From Pyrobaculum oguniense TE7 (GTDB lineage: Archaea > Thermoproteota > Thermoprotei > Thermoproteales > Thermoproteaceae): a stretch of 64,000 nucleotides of DNA. The translations under genes were made by a program, and so were the position numbers. Below the pieces are notes generated by a model. It was not told the DNA's origin. It did no database searches and saw nothing but the letters and a program-made list of their open reading frames with translations. The stretch spans positions 1,087,233 to 1,151,232 of the forward strand of contig CP003316.1 of assembly GCA_000247545.1 (NCBI GenBank). Reading direction: 5' to 3'. Below, in pieces: positions 6,149 through 41,314 of the stretch. Position 1 is the first letter of the stretch; every line of letters starts with the position of its first letter.

Positions 6149-6199
6149 ATGACAGAGGGGCGGCGTGTGGCAGGCTGTATTAGGCTATGGGCGGTCTAA
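6149..6199 (+). other. Possible 16-codon upstream ORF overlapping the cobY start
   Basis: A TATA-like TTTTTAAAAA at 6120-6130 predicts transcription starting near 6149, where an ATG opens a 16-residue frame (MTEGRRVAGCIRLWAV) ending at TAA 6197-6199, 13 bases inside the following cobY frame. Most genes here are leaderless, so the first ATG at the RNA end should be the one used, which would leave cobY to be reached by re-initiation. It may simply be chance; no known peptide matches. Confidence 0.3.
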
Positions 6200-7032
6200 C
6201 CGCTGTGATTATGGCGGGTGGGAGGGGGCGGCGGGCTGGCGACCCAGAGAAGTGCTTGTGGCCGCTGTGCGGCGTTCCGCTCCTCTTCAGGGTCGCCGGC
6301 GCCCTGGCGCAGGTTGCGGATAAAATCGTCGTGCTCACTACGCCTACTCACCGTCGCGTTGCGAAATACGCTGCGGAGTGGGGGCTGGAAGTCGCCTACA
6401 CTCCAGGTGTTGGCTACGAAAGGGATTTCATATACGCAACCCGATATGCCCCCGCCGTCGTGGCGGCGTGCGACTTGGCCAACCTCACCCCAGGCCACGT
6501 GGAGAAGCTCCTGGCGCACGAGGTCTTCGCCACCGCCGTGTCTCAGGGCGGCTACCCAGGCTTGTCCTACTTGCCCACCCCCCGGCTCGACCGCTGGGTG
6601 GACGTCGACGTGGGCGCCGTCGTCGATGTAGATACGCCGGAGGATTTAGAGAGGGCAAAGGAGGATTGCCCAGTGGCGTACCCCCTATACGTGCCCACCT
6701 CCAAGCTGAGGCCCCACGAGGAGGTCCTAGAGGAGAGGACGTACCAGAGGGTGCGGCCCATCGCCGTGGACTACAAGTCTGGAATTATCCTAGACGGCCA
6801 CCACCGCTTCGCCTTCCTCAAGAAGCTGGAAGTCGCCCCCATACTCCTCTTCGACTACGACGTGGTAGACGTCAACGTAGACAAGAAGACGGTGATTGAA
6901 GCCGCGGAGACGGGCCGCCTAATGCCGCCTAAGACTACGTGGCATACCTACAAGGGGCGCCACGTTTCGCAAATACCCACTGTCGAGGTGCCAGTCGATT
7001 ACTTGGCCAAGCTGAGAAGCCGCTTCCGCTGA
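6187..7032 (+). CDS. cobY: CobY-type GTP:adenosylcobinamide-phosphate guanylyltransferase fused to a SerK/ParB-like kinase domain
   Basis: Residues 1-155 form a nucleotidyltransferase domain: it opens with AVIMAGGRGRR, the GTP-binding loop of CobY/MobA-type enzymes, and contains VDVDVGAVVDVDTPEDL near its end. CobY converts adenosylcobinamide phosphate to adenosylcobinamide-GDP in archaea. Residues 165-281 form a second domain with SKLRPHEEV, GIILDGHHRFAFLKKL and GRLMPPKTTWH. These motifs belong to the SerK/SbnI branch of ParB-like proteins, which phosphorylate free serine. In a cobalamin context the parallel substrate would be L-threonine, whose phosphate is used by CobD encoded at 11347. 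The kinase role is inference. The start at ATG 6187 is preceded by a short overlapping upstream ORF. Confidence 0.85.
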   Translation: MGGLTAVIMAGGRGRRAGDPEKCLWPLCGVPLLFRVAGALAQVADKIVVLTTPTHRRVAKYAAEWGLEVAYTPGVGYERDFIYATRYAPAVVAACDLANLTPGHVEKLLAHEVFATAVSQGGYPGLSYLPTPRLDRWVDVDVGAVVDVDTPEDLERAKEDCPVAYPLYVPTSKLRPHEEVLEERTYQRVRPIAVDYKSGIILDGHHRFAFLKKLEVAPILLFDYDVVDVNVDKKTVIEAAETGRLMPPKTTWHTYKGRHVSQIPTVEVPVDYLAKLRSRFR

Positions 7033-7354: not shown

Positions 7355-7858
7355 TTACCAGTCCAGCCCCCTTACGGCTACGGCGCCTTTTTCGTAGTAG
7401 TGCTTCTCGGCCTCGACCCTAGTGACGAGGTCGAAAAGCTCTGCGAGCTGCGGCTCCCAGTAGTTCCCAGTCGCCACTAGGTGGGCCTCAACGCCTCTTA
7501 TCTTTACCAAGTCGGCCGGCCTCAGAAACCCCTGCCTAACCGCGTAGAGCACCTCGTCCAGTATCACCACGTCGTAGTTGTCCGCGGCCTCCAGCGCGTA
7601 TTCATACAAAAGCTTAGGGTTTCCGATATCGGTGAGGTAGAGGGTGTGGATGCCCAGCCTTCTCATCGCCTTGTACTCCCCCACCTCCTCCTGTTGGTAG
7701 TACGGAGTTTTCATAACGCCGGCGTACAGCACCCTTAGGCCGTGCCCTGCCGCCCTAAGCGCTATACCCAGAGCGGCTGAGGTTTTCCCCTTCCCACCGC
7801 CGTGGAAAGCAAGCCTCATGGCCCCAGTCCCGTCTCTGCATATATACCCATCGGCCAC
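7355..7858 (-). CDS. cobO: Corrinoid adenosyltransferase CobO/BtuR family
   Basis: The enzyme transfers the adenosyl group of ATP to the cobalt of cob(I)yrinic acid diamide or cobinamide. 167 residues, normal for the family. The P-loop GGGKGKTS at residues 20-27 is the shifted Walker A of CobA/CobO, and YDVVILDEVLYAV is the Walker B-like segment with the conserved Asp-Glu. Start GTG 7858 lies just after the cbiS stop, so it is read as the third gene of a cobT-cbiS-cobO operon; ATG 7819 is an alternative start. Family identity is clear. Confidence 0.92.
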   Translation of the reverse strand: MADGYICRDGTGAMRLAFHGGGKGKTSAALGIALRAAGHGLRVLYAGVMKTPYYQQEEVGEYKAMRRLGIHTLYLTDIGNPKLLYEYALEAADNYDVVILDEVLYAVRQGFLRPADLVKIRGVEAHLVATGNYWEPQLAELFDLVTRVEAEKHYYEKGAVAVRGLDW

Positions 7859-7859
7859 C

Positions 7860-8861
7860 TCAGCCGGGAGAGTACTTCTTCCTGTATAGGCTTAGGTAGA
7901 CGCCAGCTATCAGCGCCGACAACACGTCGTCGCTGAACATGGGCAGTTCGGGAAAGGCCCCCCTCTTCTTTAGCCTCTCCACCCAGTACGTGGCCAACAC
8001 TGCGTTGAAGCCGCCGAGGTAGTCGGCGAGGGCGACCCCCAGCAGTTCGTCTGCAACGACGCGGGCCGTGTCGGCTCTGTACTCCTCCGCGGCGAGGCCC
8101 GGTATCGCGCCGGCGGCTCCCAAGGCGTCTAGCTCCGCGGCGGCGAGGATGAGAGCCCAGACATTTGGGTCCTTCAAGACGTTGTCCAGAGCCTCAGCGA
8201 TTTCTCCATCAGACACGGGGAGGGGCGCCTTCTCCAGCGCCTTCTTGAAGATGCTTATAAACTCCTCCCTCTTGACCAACACCCTCTCGAAGAGGTCGAA
8301 ATTATCCCCCCTCCTCACTAGGCTGTACACCAGCCGTGAGGCTCTTCTCCCAAGCTCCGTGGCGGGGCCGGCGAAGTGCACCTCCTCTGGCTTGTCAGCC
8401 GGCACGAGGACGGCAACGGCGTCTGTGACCGTCCCGCCCGCACGGCGTCCGTTGCACCTAAGTAGCGAGTCCACCGCGGCTACGCACTTGGCCTCCACCG
8501 CCGTCCGCAAGAGGTCAGCCATCCCCCACCTAGAGAGCGGCGCGTTGGCGATGACCGCCACGTTTATTGTGCCTACGCAAGACGGCGGCGTCATGGCCAC
8601 CGTGGCGGCGGCGGCCACGGGCCCCTCCTCCGCGTAGGAAAAGGCCTCGGGAAGTTCCGCCGCTGTGAGGAAGACAACGGCGGGGGCGCCCACCTCCCGC
8701 CCTATGCCCTCTGCGTATTTTAAGTAATCGCCGTCGAAATCCCTCGCCACTTGGGCGAAGGCGACTGCCTCAACAACCGGCGGGGCTGGCAGTGTGGAAA
8801 GCGCCCTGTGAGGGCCGCCCAGCCAAAGCACCGCCCTTCCCCTAGATGTCTCCACCCTCAT
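7860..8861 (-). CDS. cbiS: CbiS: adenosylcobinamide amidohydrolase fused to alpha-ribazole-phosphate phosphatase
   Basis: 333 residues with two parts. Residues 1-180 are CbiZ-like: VGTINVAVIANAPL, VEAKCVAAVDSL and GTVTDAVAV are the conserved blocks of the hydrolase that cuts the aminopropanol arm from adenosylcobinamide so that it can be salvaged as cobyric acid. Residues 200-333 resemble CobZ/PgpA-type phosphatases (DELLGVALADYLGGFNAV, VYLSLY). That phosphatase removes the 5'-phosphate from alpha-ribazole phosphate or the final nucleotide. The same fusion was characterised in Methanopyrus as CbiS. Start ATG 8861 lies 13 bases after the cobT stop; the longer open frame upstream is an artefact overlapping cobT. 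Confidence 0.87.
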   Translation of the reverse strand: MRVETSRGRAVLWLGGPHRALSTLPAPPVVEAVAFAQVARDFDGDYLKYAEGIGREVGAPAVVFLTAAELPEAFSYAEEGPVAAAATVAMTPPSCVGTINVAVIANAPLSRWGMADLLRTAVEAKCVAAVDSLLRCNGRRAGGTVTDAVAVLVPADKPEEVHFAGPATELGRRASRLVYSLVRRGDNFDLFERVLVKREEFISIFKKALEKAPLPVSDGEIAEALDNVLKDPNVWALILAAAELDALGAAGAIPGLAAEEYRADTARVVADELLGVALADYLGGFNAVLATYWVERLKKRGAFPELPMFSDDVLSALIAGVYLSLYRKKYSPG

Positions 8862-8874
8862 CAGCCTCGGAGCC

Positions 8875-9867
8875 TTATCGCGTGGCCGTAACCCTCTCGT
8901 ACTCGGCCTCGACGAGGGGGAGGACGTCTCTCCCCACCAGCTGGGCGTAGAACAAGGCGCCGCCCATCCCCACGCCCTCCTTGACGTAGCCCTCCTCGTA
9001 CGCCCTAAGCCCCGGGTGCTTAGACGCGGCAAAGCTCACGTTAGCCACGTGGACGTTCCTCACCCCTACCTCCTCCATAAGTCCCCAGAAGTCGGCGTTT
9101 TTATCCTCGGCAATCCACCTAGTTGTGACTACATGGAGCTTGGACATCTCACCCCCAAGCGCCTTGTACAGCGCCGCGGCGGCCGCCATCTGGGTGCCGC
9201 CGGCGAGAACAGGCGCCCCACCGCCCTCCGCAACCCCCAGCGCCACCGCCGCCAAGGCGAGGTGGACGGGATCGCCCACTTGTCTCGCCGCCTCGAGGGG
9301 GTCTAAAGGCCGTCCAGCCCTCTCCAGGGCCTTCTTCACCACTGCGGCTTTCAACTCCTTTGGGTTATTGGGCGATGCCGAGCTCGTCCGGCCCCACGCG
9401 TCGTAGCCAAGCGCCACTAGTATCGCCATGGCCGTGGTGGTGCCGCCGGGTATGCTCTCCCCGATGTAAACGACGCCCAGTCTCCCCAGCTCCCTCCCCA
9501 AAATCTGCCCCCTCTTGACGATGTTTCCTGCAGCATCGCGGCTTATCGCGGAGAAGAAGCGGATATCCCTCCCCGGTTCTCCCCCCAGCTCCACATACGG
9601 CACCTTTGGCGCCCACCTGCTCCCCGCGTTTACCACCAGCTTGGGCACGTCATACGCCACCGCCCTAGTGACAAGCGCCGGTGTGGGGATGCCTTGTGGC
9701 GTCACCGGTATCACGTCAAGCGTAAGCGGCCTGCCCGCAATTAGGTACTCCACGTCCAGCGCAGGCGTCAAGTGGGTCAGCTCTGGAGAAGCTCCCGCCA
9801 CTGAGATGCCTGGTATGAGCGACACGTCGGTGGTTCCTATCACCACGACGAATATAGAGGGCCTCAT
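8875..9867 (-). CDS. cobT: Archaeal CobT-like nicotinate-nucleotide phosphoribosyltransferase
   Basis: About 330 residues of the archaeal branch of CobT (TIGR00303/UPF0284 type). The family is thought to make the alpha-ribazole phosphate used for the lower ligand. Recognisable blocks are GAVGSxSPEL-like LIPGISVAGASPELT near the start, IGESIPGGTTTAMAIL, and VLAGGTQMAAAAALY. Two starts are close: GTG 9873 and ATG 9867. The TATA box shared with the opposite operon is centred at about 9892, 25 bases from ATG 9867, so I choose that one. First gene of the cobT-cbiS-cobO operon. The catalytic residues of bacterial CobT are not readily aligned by eye. Confidence 0.85.
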   Translation of the reverse strand: MRPSIFVVVIGTTDVSLIPGISVAGASPELTHLTPALDVEYLIAGRPLTLDVIPVTPQGIPTPALVTRAVAYDVPKLVVNAGSRWAPKVPYVELGGEPGRDIRFFSAISRDAAGNIVKRGQILGRELGRLGVVYIGESIPGGTTTAMAILVALGYDAWGRTSSASPNNPKELKAAVVKKALERAGRPLDPLEAARQVGDPVHLALAAVALGVAEGGGAPVLAGGTQMAAAAALYKALGGEMSKLHVVTTRWIAEDKNADFWGLMEEVGVRNVHVANVSFAASKHPGLRAYEEGYVKEGVGMGGALFYAQLVGRDVLPLVEAEYERVTATR

Positions 9868-9886
9868 GACCACTAAAAACTCGACA

Positions 9887-9915: not shown

Positions 9916-10542
9916 ATGAACCTGAAGAGCGGAGGCCTAAAAGTGGCGATGTACAGCGGGGGGAAAGAGAGCGTTTACGCCGCGTTGCTGGAATGGCCCG
10001 TTGACCTCTTCCTGTTCCTCGTCTACGACTTCCCGAGGCCTTCCCCCCATATAGTGAACATAGGCCCGGCCGTGAGGTTCGGCTCTCTGCTCGCCCCAGT
10101 GCTGGTCAAGAAGCTGACCCGGGGCAGAGAGCTTGAGGAGAAGGCAGAGCTGCTGAGACGGCTCGGCGCCGCTGTGATAGTGGCAGGCGATGTTGACGTA
10201 GAGGAACACCTCAAGTACATGGAGAAGCTCGCCGCGTTGGCCGGCGCCTCTTTAAAAGAGCCGCTCTGGGGCATAGACCACGAGGAGTTGTTATACAAGG
10301 AGGTCGAGGAGCTAGACTTCATCGTGATAGGAGCCTCTAGGAGGGAGCTCCTCTGCCGCCGAGTCGGTAGAGATAACGCAAATGAATTCGCCGAGTTGGC
10401 CAAATCGCTGGGTGTTGACGTGCTAGGGGAGAGGGGGGAATACCACAGCCAAGTCGTAGCGGTGAAGAGGCTTGGCGCTACGGCGGAGCTGTCGTGTAAA
10501 GACGTCGTTGAAGTAGGCGGATACCACATCGCCGTGCTATGA
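9916..10542 (+). CDS. DUF71/COG2102 ATP pyrophosphatase, B12-associated branch
   Basis: 208 residues. The PP-loop SGGKES is at residues 14-19. The C-terminal signature reads GERGEYHS at about 171-178, whereas the diphthamide enzyme encoded at 40571 in this window has GEGGEYES. Comparative genomics of DUF71 predicted a separate subgroup linked to B12 salvage; the divergent motif and the position here, first in an operon with cobD, cobS and cbiB, fit that subgroup. Such enzymes activate a carboxylate as an adenylate for amidation. The exact substrate is unknown. The next gene starts within its stop codon (ATGA). Confidence 0.75.
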   Translation: MNLKSGGLKVAMYSGGKESVYAALLEWPVDLFLFLVYDFPRPSPHIVNIGPAVRFGSLLAPVLVKKLTRGRELEEKAELLRRLGAAVIVAGDVDVEEHLKYMEKLAALAGASLKEPLWGIDHEELLYKEVEELDFIVIGASRRELLCRRVGRDNANEFAELAKSLGVDVLGERGEYHSQVVAVKRLGATAELSCKDVVEVGGYHIAVL

Positions 10543-11363
10543 TCCTTAAGCTTCTCTCTAAATACGCCGACTGCGACTCCATATTACTGTCCGGAGGGGT
10601 TGACTCCTCAGCCGTCGCCGCGGCAACAGTCGCCCGGGGATCTAGGCCCCTTGGCGTAGTGGTCTCGCTCCGGGGGTGTAGGTCGGACCTCCCCTACGCC
10701 GCCGTTGTCTCCAGCAAGCTCTCTATCCCCCTCTCTGCGAGGATTGTGGAGAGGGGCGAGGCTGTGAGGGCAGCCGAGGAGGTAGTGGGGATCCTCAAGG
10801 TGTTTAACCCCATGGAGGTGGTGAACTGCGCCGTCGTGTACCTCGGCCTCTCCCACGCCGCGTCTTTAGGCGCGCACAGGGTGTGCACAGGTGACGGCGG
10901 TGACGAGCTGTTTCTCGGATACGACTTTTTCCGCAGAAGCCGCGATTTGGAGAGGACGAGGCATGATGTAGTTGGGAGGTGGCGCTTTTGTAGCTTCGAT
11001 ATCGGAAAGGCCCTAGGCGTAGAGGTAATCGCCCCCTTCACCCAGAGGGAGGTGGTGGAATACGCACTCTCTATACCCGCCGAGCTGGCCCTCGGAAAGA
11101 GACCGCTTAGGGAGGAGTTATCCGCCATATTGCCCGAGGTTGCGGCTAGAGAGAAGACGCCGTTGGAGAGGGGAAGTTGCTTCGACTTCCTCTACGACGA
11201 GTTTAGGAGGAAGGCAGGAGATGAGGTGGCCTACTTAAAGGCAGTTTTCGAGAGGATTGGGTTGAACTACCCCACGTCGCTTACCGGCTGTCCGCGTTGC
11301 GGATACGCGGGATTTGACGGGAGGTATTGCCCCATGTGCGGCTACTATGCACGGGGGGACTAG
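10539..11363 (+). CDS. Asparagine-synthase-like ATP pyrophosphatase with C-terminal zinc ribbon
   Basis: 274 residues. The synthetase-domain PP-loop LSGGVDSS is at residues 17-24 and the second conserved block GDGGDELFLGY at 118-128, as in asparagine synthetase B. The N-terminal glutaminase domain is absent. The C-terminus carries C251-x2-C254 and C264-x2-C267, a small zinc ribbon. It overlaps the DUF71 gene by 4 bases and cobD by 17, so its product is made together with nucleotide-loop enzymes. An amide-forming or adenylating step in corrinoid assembly or salvage is a reasonable guess; a true asparagine synthetase would be an odd passenger here. Confidence 0.75.
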   Translation: MILKLLSKYADCDSILLSGGVDSSAVAAATVARGSRPLGVVVSLRGCRSDLPYAAVVSSKLSIPLSARIVERGEAVRAAEEVVGILKVFNPMEVVNCAVVYLGLSHAASLGAHRVCTGDGGDELFLGYDFFRRSRDLERTRHDVVGRWRFCSFDIGKALGVEVIAPFTQREVVEYALSIPAELALGKRPLREELSAILPEVAAREKTPLERGSCFDFLYDEFRRKAGDEVAYLKAVFERIGLNYPTSLTGCPRCGYAGFDGRYCPMCGYYARGD

Positions 11364-12252
11364 CTGGAGGGATCCGCCAGTTTTAGATTTCAGCGACAAT
11401 TCAAACCCTCTGGGACCACCCCAAGCGCTCACTGCGCTTATAAAAGAGGCGGTGGAGAGGGGCGTCTACTTAAAATTCCCTGCAAACGCCGCCGAGGAGG
11501 TCTTGGCGGAGTACGAAGGGATCGACGTCGTGGCCTTCAACGGGGCGACTGAGGCGTTGACTGCGCTGATGGCGTACTTAAAGCCTAAGCGCGTGTTGGT
11601 GGAGTGGCCTAACTACACGGACTACAGCCGCATCGCCTCTCTGCTGGGTTTGCAGTGGAGGCACGCACGTGGCCCGGAGGAGGCTACCGCGGGCGACCTC
11701 TACGTAGTGTCAAACCCCAACAACCCCACTGGGCGCTACTTGAAGCGGGGCGAGCTGGCGGAGCTGGCAAAGCGGCTGGCGGCTAGGGGGGCCAAGCTCC
11801 TGGTAGACGAGTCCTTTATAGACTTCGTTGGAGGCGAAACCGCGGCGCCCGACGTCCCCGTGGCTAAGTCCTACGGCAAGCTTCTAGCGGCGCCGGGTCT
11901 GAGGGTGGGCGCAGTGCTTGGGATGAGGGACGAGCGGCTTATGGCTCCGTGGCGCCTAAACTCTATCGCCGATTTCGCCGTATACCACCTAGGCGCTGAT
12001 GGTCTTAGGAAGCACCGCGCCGCCACGGTGGCCTATGTGGCTGAGGAATCGCCGAGGGTGCAGAGGGAGGTGTCAAAATGTGCGGAGGTGAATCCCTCGC
12101 CGGTACACTTCTTCATAGTCAAGGGGCCCACCCCCCGGGGGGTCAAGGTGCGGCCTCTGGAGGACCACGGAATCCCCGGCTACAGGGTGTCCATAAGGAC
12201 GCCCGAGTTGAACAGAATTTTGGTAGAGGCTATCTGCCGTGAGGTGCGTTAA
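11347..12252 (+). CDS. cobD: L-threonine-O-3-phosphate decarboxylase CobD (PLP enzyme)
   Basis: 301 residues from ATG 11347, chosen because CobD proteins begin HGG...LDFSxNxNPLGPP, exactly what follows this ATG (MHGGTSWRDPP, then LDFSDNSNPLGPP). The PLP-binding lysine is K178 in KSYGKLLAAPGLRVG, and SNPNNPTG is the aspartate-aminotransferase fold I signature. The enzyme makes (R)-1-amino-2-propanol phosphate, which CbiB attaches to cobyric acid. Its start overlaps the preceding stop region and its end overlaps cobS. Histidinol-phosphate aminotransferase is the closest alternative but the N-terminus and context favour CobD. Confidence 0.88.
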   Translation: MHGGTSWRDPPVLDFSDNSNPLGPPQALTALIKEAVERGVYLKFPANAAEEVLAEYEGIDVVAFNGATEALTALMAYLKPKRVLVEWPNYTDYSRIASLLGLQWRHARGPEEATAGDLYVVSNPNNPTGRYLKRGELAELAKRLAARGAKLLVDESFIDFVGGETAAPDVPVAKSYGKLLAAPGLRVGAVLGMRDERLMAPWRLNSIADFAVYHLGADGLRKHRAATVAYVAEESPRVQREVSKCAEVNPSPVHFFIVKGPTPRGVKVRPLEDHGIPGYRVSIRTPELNRILVEAICREVR

Positions 12253-12895
12253 GTCACTCATCGCCTTCTTCACCGCATATCCCGTCGGCGGTGGGGAGCT
12301 GAGCTTTAAATGCGTGTGGGCCTTGCCATACCTCGTCGCGCCCCTCGTGGCGGCCCCCTCTGCGCTGCTCCTCTATCTCGGCATTAGCCCCGTCCTCGCT
12401 TACATCGCCCTAGTCGCGGCAACGGGCCTCCACCACCTGGACGGCCTCGCGGACGTTGCCGACGCGCTTATGGTAAGGGATAAGACGAGAGCTAGGGAGG
12501 TTCTGGATGACCCCAGAAAGGGAACTGCTGGCGTTTTCGCCGTGGTCGCCGCGATCGCCGTGGCCTCGTACCACCTCTCGGAGCCGGCGCAGGCGGCGGC
12601 CTCGGAGGTTTTCTCCAAGGCAGCGACGCTCCTCTTCGCCGGCTTCAGTAAGCCCTTTAAGCCGGGGCTCGGCGAGGCCTTTACCTACGTTGCGAGGAGG
12701 CAGTGGCCCGCCGCCATTCCGGCGCTTGTAGCCCTAGCCATCATCAAGCCGGCATCCTTCGCCGCTACGCTTGTGGTGAGCCTCGCGCTGTACTGGGTAG
12801 CGTATAGGCACCTCGGAGGCGCAAACGGCGATGTCTACGGCTACCTCCTCGAAGTGGCCAGGGTATCCTACATAGCTGCATGGAGCCTTGGCTGA
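12239..12895 (+). CDS. cobS: Adenosylcobinamide-GDP ribazoletransferase CobS
   Basis: Integral membrane enzyme that joins adenosylcobinamide-GDP to alpha-ribazole (phosphate), the last assembly step. 218 residues with several hydrophobic helices. The family signature HHLDGLADVADAL is at about residues 65-77, and the closing GGANGDVYGYLLE block is present. GTG 12239 lies inside the end of cobD; the stop overlaps cbiB. Length is slightly under the usual 240-250 but the conserved blocks are all seen. Confidence 0.9.
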   Translation: MRCVKSLIAFFTAYPVGGGELSFKCVWALPYLVAPLVAAPSALLLYLGISPVLAYIALVAATGLHHLDGLADVADALMVRDKTRAREVLDDPRKGTAGVFAVVAAIAVASYHLSEPAQAAASEVFSKAATLLFAGFSKPFKPGLGEAFTYVARRQWPAAIPALVALAIIKPASFAATLVVSLALYWVAYRHLGGANGDVYGYLLEVARVSYIAAWSLG

Positions 12896-13854
12896 AAGCC
12901 GTCGCGGAAGCCTATCTGTGGCTAGCGACTTGTGCGCTCGTTCTGGCAATGCCTAGTCACAGCCCGCTCCTCTCGCCAGACCCAACAGCGTTATTATTTG
13001 CGCTGGTGCTGGAGGCGGCGGACTTTCCCGCGAAATGGGACAACTACCTTGTCTCCAGACTTATCCCCCCGCGAGTCCATCCGGTGGCGTTGATATACGC
13101 GCTGGGCGCCTTCGTCATGCGGAGGTCGAGAGGTGTCCTAGGCGGCGTGGTCGTGTTGGCCGCAGTAACGCTTCCAATGACTACGGCGGCGATCGCCTTC
13201 AGGCTTGTGAGAGGCGACGAGATATACTGGTCCCTAGCCGAGGGCTACCTCCTCAAGCTATCCTTCTCCATTACCCACGTCACGTATGGATGTGCTTTGG
13301 GATACATCAAAGGCGAGGCATGTTGGGCTGTATCCCAGTTCGTGCGGCGAGACCTATCCGCGTGTAGACGAGAATTGGTCAACAGCGCGTGTATCGAGGC
13401 AGCGGCAGAGTCGTTGGTAGACTCCTACGTCTCTACGCTGTTCTGGTACGGCGTGTTGGGGCTTCCCGGCGCGTGGCTCCAGCGCTCCGTCAACACAGCA
13501 GATGGCCTAGCCGGCTTTAGGCACCACGGCCCCCTAGGCGCCCCGTCGGCGTATGCCGACACGGCGTTGAACTGGGCCCCGGCGAGAGCGACGGCCGCGC
13601 TACTGCTGGCTACATCGCTTAAGGCTCCTGGCGCGTTGCTATACATGTCCGCGTTGCCTAGCCCAAATGCGAGGTGGCCCATATCAGCGGCGGCGGCCGC
13701 CGTAGGCGCAGGAGTAGAAAAGGAGGGGGCGTACCGAATCCCGGGCCCCCGCCCCCACGAAGTCGATGTGATTAACGCGTTGGGAGTAGCCCACGCCGCG
13801 GCCGCTCTGTGGGCCTTGTTGATGGCCGTCAGCCTGCCGCTAAAGTTTATATGA
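12880..13854 (+). CDS. cbiB: Adenosylcobinamide-phosphate synthase CbiB
   Basis: 324-residue membrane protein. Family blocks: AAAESLVDSYVSTLFWYGVLG, then VNTADGLAGFRHHGP and LNWAPARATA. These correspond to the conserved N-x-x-D, NTxDxMxG and LNxxPAR motifs of CbiB. The enzyme condenses adenosylcobyric acid with aminopropanol phosphate. Last gene of the five-gene overlapping operon that begins at 9916. Start ATG 12880 overlaps the end of cobS by 16 bases. Confidence 0.88.
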   Translation: MEPWLKAVAEAYLWLATCALVLAMPSHSPLLSPDPTALLFALVLEAADFPAKWDNYLVSRLIPPRVHPVALIYALGAFVMRRSRGVLGGVVVLAAVTLPMTTAAIAFRLVRGDEIYWSLAEGYLLKLSFSITHVTYGCALGYIKGEACWAVSQFVRRDLSACRRELVNSACIEAAAESLVDSYVSTLFWYGVLGLPGAWLQRSVNTADGLAGFRHHGPLGAPSAYADTALNWAPARATAALLLATSLKAPGALLYMSALPSPNARWPISAAAAAVGAGVEKEGAYRIPGPRPHEVDVINALGVAHAAAALWALLMAVSLPLKFI

Positions 13855-40304: not shown

Positions 40305-40574
40305 GTGAACCTCCTGAACTTCATAGGTGCTTTCCACGTGGAGGTATCTAGGTTGCTGGACATTGTTGAAAGCGCAGGCGAGGCATCTGGCTACATGGAG
40401 TGGGCCACGGGCAAGGTTGGGGACGTGGAGGTGTTTTTCCTATGGTTTCCAAAGACGAGGCGTCTCGTTTACGCTATTCAGGGCCGTCAGAGAAATTACG
40501 GCGAGGTAGAGGTGAAAGGGGTGCTGGAGGCCATAGCATATGTCGAGCGGTTGCTGAAGCAGCTGAGGAGATGA
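40305..40574 (+). CDS. Small conserved-looking protein upstream of dph6
   Basis: 89 residues starting at GTG 40305, 25 bases after AAATTAAATAAG (about 40278-40289). Mixed alpha/beta composition (VEVFFLWFPKTRRLVYAIQ) and a basic final helix. Its stop overlaps the start of dph6 (ATGAG), so it is co-translated with the diphthamide enzyme. Family not recognised; a role in translation-factor modification is only suggested by position. Confidence 0.65.
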   Translation: MNLLNFIGAFHVEVSRLLDIVESAGEASGYMEWATGKVGDVEVFFLWFPKTRRLVYAIQGRQRNYGEVEVKGVLEAIAYVERLLKQLRR

Positions 40575-41314
40575 GAGTCTGCGTGTTATATACAGGGGGA
40601 AAGGACAGCCACTACGCCTTATTAAAAGTCCTTGAGACAGGTCACGAGGTTGTATGTCTTGCCACAGCCGCGCCGAGAAGGGGGGACTCCTACATGTTCC
40701 ACTCAGTGAATGTGAAGTGGAGTCTTCTGCACGGAGAGGCTATGGGGTTGCCGCAACATTTAGTGGAGACTAGTGGAGAGAAAGAGGTAGAGGTTGAGGA
40801 GTTCTACCGGGAGCTGAAACCTCTTGTTATGCGATATGGGGTGGAGGGGTTAGTGTCTGGTGCGGTGTCATCAGTGTACCAGAAAAGCCGACTTGACAAG
40901 ATGGCCGAGGCGCTGGGCGTTAGGCACCTGGCTCCTCTGTGGGGGCGCGACCACGTGGAGCTTCTGCGAGAGGAAGTTGCCAAGATCCGCTTTGTTATAA
41001 CAGCTACTATGGCGCTGGGGCTGTCGGAGAGGCATCTATGCGCCGTGGTTGACGAAAAAATGGCTGAGGAGATAATAGCCCTGGCTAGGCGCTATGGCTT
41101 TTCGCCGGTGGGGGAGGGGGGCGAGTACGAGAGCTATGTGGTGGAGAGTCCGCTGTTTGCGATTGACATAGTAGCCGAGCCACGGTGGCGCCCCAGCGGC
41201 TGGGGCGTATGTGAGATAAAAGAGGCTAAGATCCGCAGAGGGCAGAGGGCTGGTTCGAGTTTTCCGGGGAGGGGGAACTCGATGTCGGCATCTAGTTGGG
41301 CCCCTCGGCATTGA
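40571..41314 (+). CDS. dph6: Diphthine-ammonia ligase Dph6 (DUF71)
   Basis: 247 residues from ATG 40571. PP-loop YTGGKDSHYAL near the N-terminus and the Dph6-type GEGGEYESYVV block near residue 180; SVYQKSRLDKMAEALGVRHLAPLWGRD-like segments are also family hallmarks. The enzyme adenylates diphthine on elongation factor 2 and amidates it to diphthamide. A second DUF71 protein, B12-linked, is encoded at 9916. The last 24 residues (serine- and arginine-rich) extend past the usual end. Confidence 0.85.
   Translation: MRVCVLYTGGKDSHYALLKVLETGHEVVCLATAAPRRGDSYMFHSVNVKWSLLHGEAMGLPQHLVETSGEKEVEVEEFYRELKPLVMRYGVEGLVSGAVSSVYQKSRLDKMAEALGVRHLAPLWGRDHVELLREEVAKIRFVITATMALGLSERHLCAVVDEKMAEEIIALARRYGFSPVGEGGEYESYVVESPLFAIDIVAEPRWRPSGWGVCEIKEAKIRRGQRAGSSFPGRGNSMSASSWAPRH

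Follow-up and report, generated by a model that had tools for sequence, protein, structure and literature searches.

A synthetase-only asparagine-synthase-like protein of archaeal B12 loci as a possible ammonia-dependent replacement for CbiP in Thermoproteota

The described proteins closest to the one studied here, which we call AsnL, are the asparagine synthetases AsnB/ASNS (TIGR01536; PDB 1ct9) and beta-lactam synthetase (1mc1). All share with AsnL a PP-loop synthetase fold, an SGGxDS motif, a G-[DEQ]-x-x-DE block and an invariant lysine. However, AsnL has no glutaminase domain, carries Asp in place of Gln or Glu, has its own residues E93 and N96, bears a zinc ribbon, occurs in a B12 context and forms a separate clade. 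CbiP/CobQ (TIGR00313) is the system whose job we propose for AsnL; the two are found at matching operon positions and are nearly mutually exclusive in distribution, but their folds and chemistry are unrelated, and AsnL gives no match to TIGR00313. CbiP is an ADP-forming enzyme. Proteins of the DUF71-B12 subgroup are, like AsnL, B12-linked PP-loop ATPases and are its usual neighbours, yet they belong to a different PP-loop family, that of diphthine-ammonia ligase. This ligase, Dph6, carries out ammonia-dependent amidation of a carboxylate by a PP-loop enzyme, which is the chemistry proposed below for AsnL, although its substrate is EF-2. A second DUF71 copy in the window (i.e., the whole 64,000-nt stretch of Pyrobaculum oguniense TE7 DNA that was analysed), at positions 40370 to 41311 on the + strand, has the Dph6-type signature EGGEYE. 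Adenylation, attack by ammonia and release of AMP are standard for both AsnB-type and Dph6-type enzymes.

In DUF71-B12 proteins the motif E-x-G-E-[FY]-H replaces EGGE/DXE (de Crécy-Lagard et al. 2012, PMC3541065), and the portion of that paper dealing with B12 predicts a CbiZ-like salvage role for them while leaving the matter open. Its section on the ammonia source of Dph6 ties AsnB domains to DUF71 as fusions, not to B12 loci. The passage of PMC3189178 on Thermoproteus tenax describes cbiA genes as a repeated pair. In the relevant sections of PMC4303638, TIGR00313 is used as a marker, thaumarchaeal pathways are treated as complete and ammonia-oxidising archaea are proposed as important aquatic B12 makers. 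An asparagine synthase is mentioned in a passage of PMC2667541 that concerns a predicted B12-dependent enzyme. In the open-licence literature, we found no report in which corrin amidation is linked to a protein resembling asparagine synthase.

The AsnL gene (10539 to 11363, + strand) encodes 274 residues and is clearly not a chance ORF. An earlier note on this DNA had taken it for a relative of AsnB reduced to the synthetase part and extended by a C-terminal zinc ribbon, and profile searches bore this out. PF00733 matched with an E value of 1.4e-23 and 84.6 bits (gathering score, 21), the best stretch pairing residues 15-140 with profile positions 22-147, and the curated AsnB model TIGR01536 gave 68.7 bits, missing its cut-off of 267.1. 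The domain-profile libraries yielded no match to a glutaminase domain, and the PP-loop begins at residue 18, leaving no room for an N-terminal one. The protein thus has the PP-loop synthetase fold and catalytic block of AsnB and lacks its N-terminal glutamine amidotransferase domain. Conservation was counted over 53 full-length AsnL sequences, two others being set aside, one at a contig end (L217) and one short with a stop (L228), both without the ribbon. In the PP-loop SGGVDSS (residues 18-24; 10590 to 10610, +), S18, G20 and D22 are invariant in all 53 and G19 is found in 49. Residues 117-125 read TGDGGDELF, and within TGDGGDE (residues 117-123; 10887 to 10907, +) the residues G118, D119, D122 and E123 are invariant; across these sequences the block takes the form TGD(G/A)xDE. 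So is Lys206 (11154 to 11156, +), which aligns with the conserved lysine of canonical AsnB and is present in all six AsnB sequences compared; K187, R191, R204 and G212 are likewise invariant in AsnL. The ribbon, CPRC-x9-CPMC (residues 251-267; 11289 to 11339, +), has four cysteines kept in 53/53 AsnL and in 0/6 canonical AsnB sequences, and its library matches, to L32-like zinc ribbons, fall below threshold. An AlphaFold2 model built from seven aligned sequences (the window's and those of six other loci) had a mean pLDDT of 89.4, with AsnB (1ct9), human ASNS and beta-lactam synthetase as its top fold matches in the PDB.

AsnL overlaps the genes on both sides, as the earlier note had observed: by 4 nt (ATGA, 10539 to 10542) with DUF71, and by at least 17 nt with cobD, whose start is uncertain (17 nt with ATG at 11347; 50 nt with TTG at 11314). 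The DUF71 gene (9916 to 10542, +) encodes a PP-loop ATPase of the TTX_0299 family (NF052347, 306 bits; cut-off 250) with the DUF71-B12 signature ERGEYH, and we regard it as the partner gene. Downstream on the same strand follow cobD, threonine-phosphate decarboxylase-like (11347 to 12252; PF00155, and TIGR01140 at 147 bits, under its cut-off), cobS (12239 to 12895; PF02654, 113.6 bits) and a divergent cbiB for adenosylcobinamide-phosphate synthase (12880 to 13854; PF03186, 139.6 bits). The - strand carries cobT (8875 to 9873; TIGR00303, 313 bits, cut-off 240), cbiS, combining CbiZ amidohydrolase and CobZ phosphatase (7860 to 9032; NF038002, 442.7 bits, cut-off 250), and a cobA/cobO adenosyltransferase gene (7355 to 7858; PF02572, 104.6 bits). 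With its listed TTG start, cbiS runs into cobT, and the true start may lie further downstream.

In a tree of 55 AsnL and six canonical AsnB sequences from the same phylum, AsnL was monophyletic with support of 100/100. At the column of D119, canonical AsnB has Q (5/6) or E (1/6), and F89, E93 and N96 are kept in at least 48 of the 53 AsnL sequences and in none of the AsnB ones. The missing glutaminase together with this altered substrate region argues against ordinary asparagine synthesis. It could still be supposed that AsnL is an ordinary ammonia-dependent asparagine synthetase placed in B12 loci by chance, as its fold matches AsnB and it is the sole Asn_synthase match above cut-off in its own genome. 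We consider this very improbable: other genomes have both AsnL and canonical AsnB, the latter as a separate clade; E93, N96 and D119 set AsnL apart from it; the closed genome used as a genus control (G065), which has neither CbiB nor DUF71-B12, lives with only an AsnL fragment missing the PP-loop; and the B12 linkage, CobY fusions and DUF71-B12 pairing described below would be left to chance. Near relatives that serve as ordinary asparagine synthetases away from B12 loci would have spoken against the earlier note; none were found, although in 15 of the 55 AsnL loci the fetched stretch contains no B12 or DUF71-B12 gene. A division of AsnL into DUF71-linked and unlinked classes was dropped, as the linked sequences are scattered across the tree. 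Four loci of thaumarchaeal-type genomes (L256, L257, L258 and L259) encode another AsnB-like single-domain protein of about 263-283 residues, with ANGxDELFCGY and without a zinc ribbon.

At the other 40 of the 55 loci, searched with home-made HMMs, a B12 or DUF71-B12 gene lies within the fetched stretch, a count that includes one locus (L052) with a generic aminotransferase only, which may not be CobD. DUF71 adjoins AsnL in 26 of 56 loci (the 55 plus L198), with DUF71 first in 15, AsnL first in eight and the two on opposite strands in three; 25 of these 26 DUF71 copies have E-x-G-E-[FY]-H, and the remaining one is cut by a contig end. In three genomes (G037, G009 and G301), AsnL forms the C-terminal part of a fusion with a CobY-like domain. 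G037 and G009 are sisters and G301 lies elsewhere, so that the fusions occupy two places in the tree. The tie of AsnL to DUF71 and corrinoid genes, seen by the earlier note in one operon, therefore extends to many archaeal families and several gene orders, and a B12 link of the family well beyond this window is well supported by context. A plasmid search returned two weak bacterial matches only. Near the fusion gene of G037, which has cobS, cobT and cobZ around it, an ECF-type transporter set was read by eye (L049, 3703 to 7168); it is possibly a corrinoid or cobalt importer.

The CobY fusions fit a late step of the pathway as well as a ring step, and taken with the three genomes that have AsnL and no CbiB match (G037, G009 and G002) they favour a late one. 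AsnL might then act on the f-propionate arm, joining cobyric acid to aminopropanol (or its phosphate), either in place of CbiB, which makes the substrate of CobY, or in support of it; the position of AsnL beside cobD, cbiB or cobS in many loci would agree with this. However, among 81 genomes of the class, 24 matched AsnL and 16 of these have CbiB, as does the fusion-bearing G301. Moreover, the f32 and f3 genomes complete the arm with CbiB and without AsnL, having CbiP instead, and the DUF71-AsnL pair at the end of a ring operon (G068, see below) would be left unexplained. A role on the f-arm is thus rather unlikely in our judgement, and we return to amidation of the ring.

AsnL, CbiP and the ring-pathway marker CbiD were compared in the same 398 Thermoproteota genomes, with presence lists compiled by hand. 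The AsnL profile matched 248 of these at E≤1e-20, canonical AsnB included. In a follow-up of 35 genomes, true AsnL scored about 148-330 bits, whereas AsnB and further PP-loop proteins did not exceed 118 bits, the exception to this gap being the AsnL of G138, split over contig ends into pieces of about 100 bits. Presence was counted at E≤1e-60, a cut-off that takes in the G065 fragment and misses lower scorers such as that of G302 (200 bits), which also lie in B12 clusters. CbiD was present in 137 genomes. AsnL was found in 1/26 of those with full-length CbiP (G047, a draft of 470 contigs) and in 107/111 of those without it; among all genomes with full CbiP, it was found in 1/41. Four CbiD-positive genomes had neither full CbiP nor a counted AsnL. 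One is G138, with its AsnL on two contigs, and another, G233, has a short, stop-bearing AsnL adjoining DUF71-B12. G069 (a 130-contig draft) has neither AsnL nor full CbiP, and G319 has no AsnL. Two draft MAGs, G047 and G045, carry both AsnL and CbiP, G045 having been searched in the class set only. A Fisher test of the exclusion gave p = 4e-22 with kinship ignored, a value to which we attach little weight. A tree of CbiB from 33 genomes offered just five independent, supported pairs with a difference in AsnL; CbiP was opposite in four and undecided in one (sign test p = 0.125). The pattern is striking but lineage-clumped, and it is weak after correction for the tree.

CbiD is lacking in 50 of the 158 AsnL genomes, which look like salvagers. 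This would suit AsnL and DUF71-B12 acting together in the salvage or remodelling of foreign corrinoids (pseudo-B12, for example), an idea proposed in 2012 for DUF71-B12 alone. The relevant part of PMC3541065 connects DUF71-B12 with cbiB and with genes for B12 transport and puts forward the CbiZ-like role, and AsnL lies near cbiS in the f15 loci. However, its presence in nearly all of the CbiD-positive genomes without full CbiP would be unexpected for a function confined to salvage, and a hydrolase would hardly be expected to have a ligase fold that splits ATP. Full CbiP is itself kept in 15 CbiD-negative genomes; occurrence in salvagers is thus not special to AsnL and is no argument against its equivalence to CbiP. 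We consider the salvage pair distinctly unlikely. AsnL as a CbiZ accessory was also rejected: CbiZ occurs with CbiP and without AsnL in G180 and G269, which shows that the distribution of AsnL is not simply that of CbiZ. Restoration of side-chain amides after spontaneous hydrolysis would fit the presence of AsnL in makers, salvagers and hot organisms alike. Such corrin repair would, however, explain neither the exclusion of CbiP nor the enzyme gap in the two genomes described next, and AsnL also occurs in lineages that we take to be mesophilic ammonia oxidisers, making repair improbable.

A gap in the pathway that replacement of CbiP would fill is seen in G068 and G076, two closed (single-contig), 99% complete genomes with CbiD and AsnL. 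Genome profile searches of both found nothing for CbiP at E≤1e-40 or for GATase_3 at E≤1e-12, the weak matches (5.5e-8 and 1.9e-9) being read as other amidotransferases; CbiA and CbiP are both absent. The G068 ring operon, cobJ-cbiD-cbiT-cbiL-cobM, leads without a change of strand into DUF71-AsnL, successive matches being no more than about 36 nt apart, and in G235 ring methylases lie beside DUF71-AsnL. In nucleotide-loop operons (L139 and L201), DUF71-AsnL adjoins cobD/cbiB, where cbiP is found at the matching position in other genomes: cobD-cbiP-cbiB-cbiS in G180, cobD-cbiP-cbiB in G266 and cbiP-cbiB-cbiS in G269.

CbiP is also missing from the genome to which the window belongs, where the sole TIGR00313 match is one of 19 bits to a CbiA-like dsr gene. 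This one intact CbiA-like (GATase_3) gene lies between dsrAB-like and dsrK-like genes and is accompanied by a uroporphyrinogen methylase, the arrangement expected for DsrN (the gene names are our reading of the sequences). It was set aside as a B12 enzyme on account of this location, although it could serve both pathways; a second copy is broken. The genome has two sulfite-reductase regions (L089, 4531 to 5700; L088, 5650 to 7017), with the CbiA-like gene intact in one and interrupted by five stops in the other. The f15 genomes have one CbiA/CbiP-like protein near CbiD, with the domain order swapped in the one aligned, and hence are not altogether without a glutamine-dependent amidase. In G232, such a protein (L220, 7166 to 8749) has its amidotransferase part first and its ATPase part last and stands beside ring-pathway genes; in other f15 genomes, GATase_3 matches fall in ORFs of 520-560 residues.

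We propose that AsnL works with DUF71-B12 as a corrin amidase that uses ammonia, forms AMP and replaces CbiP, a reading to which we give slightly less than an even chance. The earlier note had suggested an undescribed amidation or activation step; the phylogenetic profile points less to such a step than to a known one for which these genomes lack the usual enzyme, CbiP. AsnL would be an amide synthetase of the ATP-pyrophosphatase type in corrinoid assembly: its PP-loop would adenylate a side-chain carboxylate of a corrin at the cobyrinic acid level, and free ammonia, in keeping with the lack of a glutaminase, would displace AMP to give the amide. AsnL and DUF71-B12, dividing the work between them in some way, would supply the peripheral amides made elsewhere by the glutamine- and ATP-dependent CbiP, and in a few genomes perhaps also those made by CbiA. 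In its widest form the proposal, which we put forward more tentatively, is that in most B12-making or B12-salvaging Thermoproteota the pair stands in for glutamine-dependent CbiP as a so far unrecognised cobyric acid synthase that depends on ammonia and forms AMP, and makes all six ring amides in some Pyrobaculum/Thermoproteus-type genomes. If this is correct: a hole in B12 synthesis would be filled for a large part of the Archaea; glutamine-fed corrin amidation would there have been replaced by an unrelated type of enzyme; DUF71-B12, open since 2012, would gain a function; the absence of cbiA and cbiP would not be a sign that an archaeon is unable to make B12; and ammonia-oxidising archaea would carry the AsnL enzyme too.

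A CbiP synthetase domain without glutaminase (CbiP', about 290 residues) occurs in 72 of the 398 genomes (f17, f52 and f54), its key motifs being intact in 3/3 aligned sequences. The order cobD-cbiP'-cbiB-cobS-cobY was found in all four loci inspected (L210, L211, L212 and L255, from G164, G248, G263 and G319). AsnL is present alongside CbiP' in 71 of the 72 genomes, G319 being the one without it. This speaks against the proposal: in those genomes AsnL and CbiP' would have to share the work, or AsnL may do something else. The f17/f54 AsnL loci inspected (L137, L145, L146, L206 and L207) showed no B12 neighbours.

The cobY-like guanylyltransferase gene of the window (6187 to 7032, +; PF12804, 58.4 bits) encodes an extra C-terminal domain that starts at about position 6619 and bears DGHHR. 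This domain resembles the free serine kinase SerK (5x0b, E = 3e-4; NF053625, E = 0.003); a CobY model from a single sequence, with a pLDDT of 32.6, was of no use. The domain might be a candidate L-threonine kinase (EC 2.7.1.177), an activity listed as a pathway gap in Haloferax in the section concerned of PMC8305020. The same SerK-like domain is common to the CobY proteins of four other loci (L034, L035, L040 and L234).
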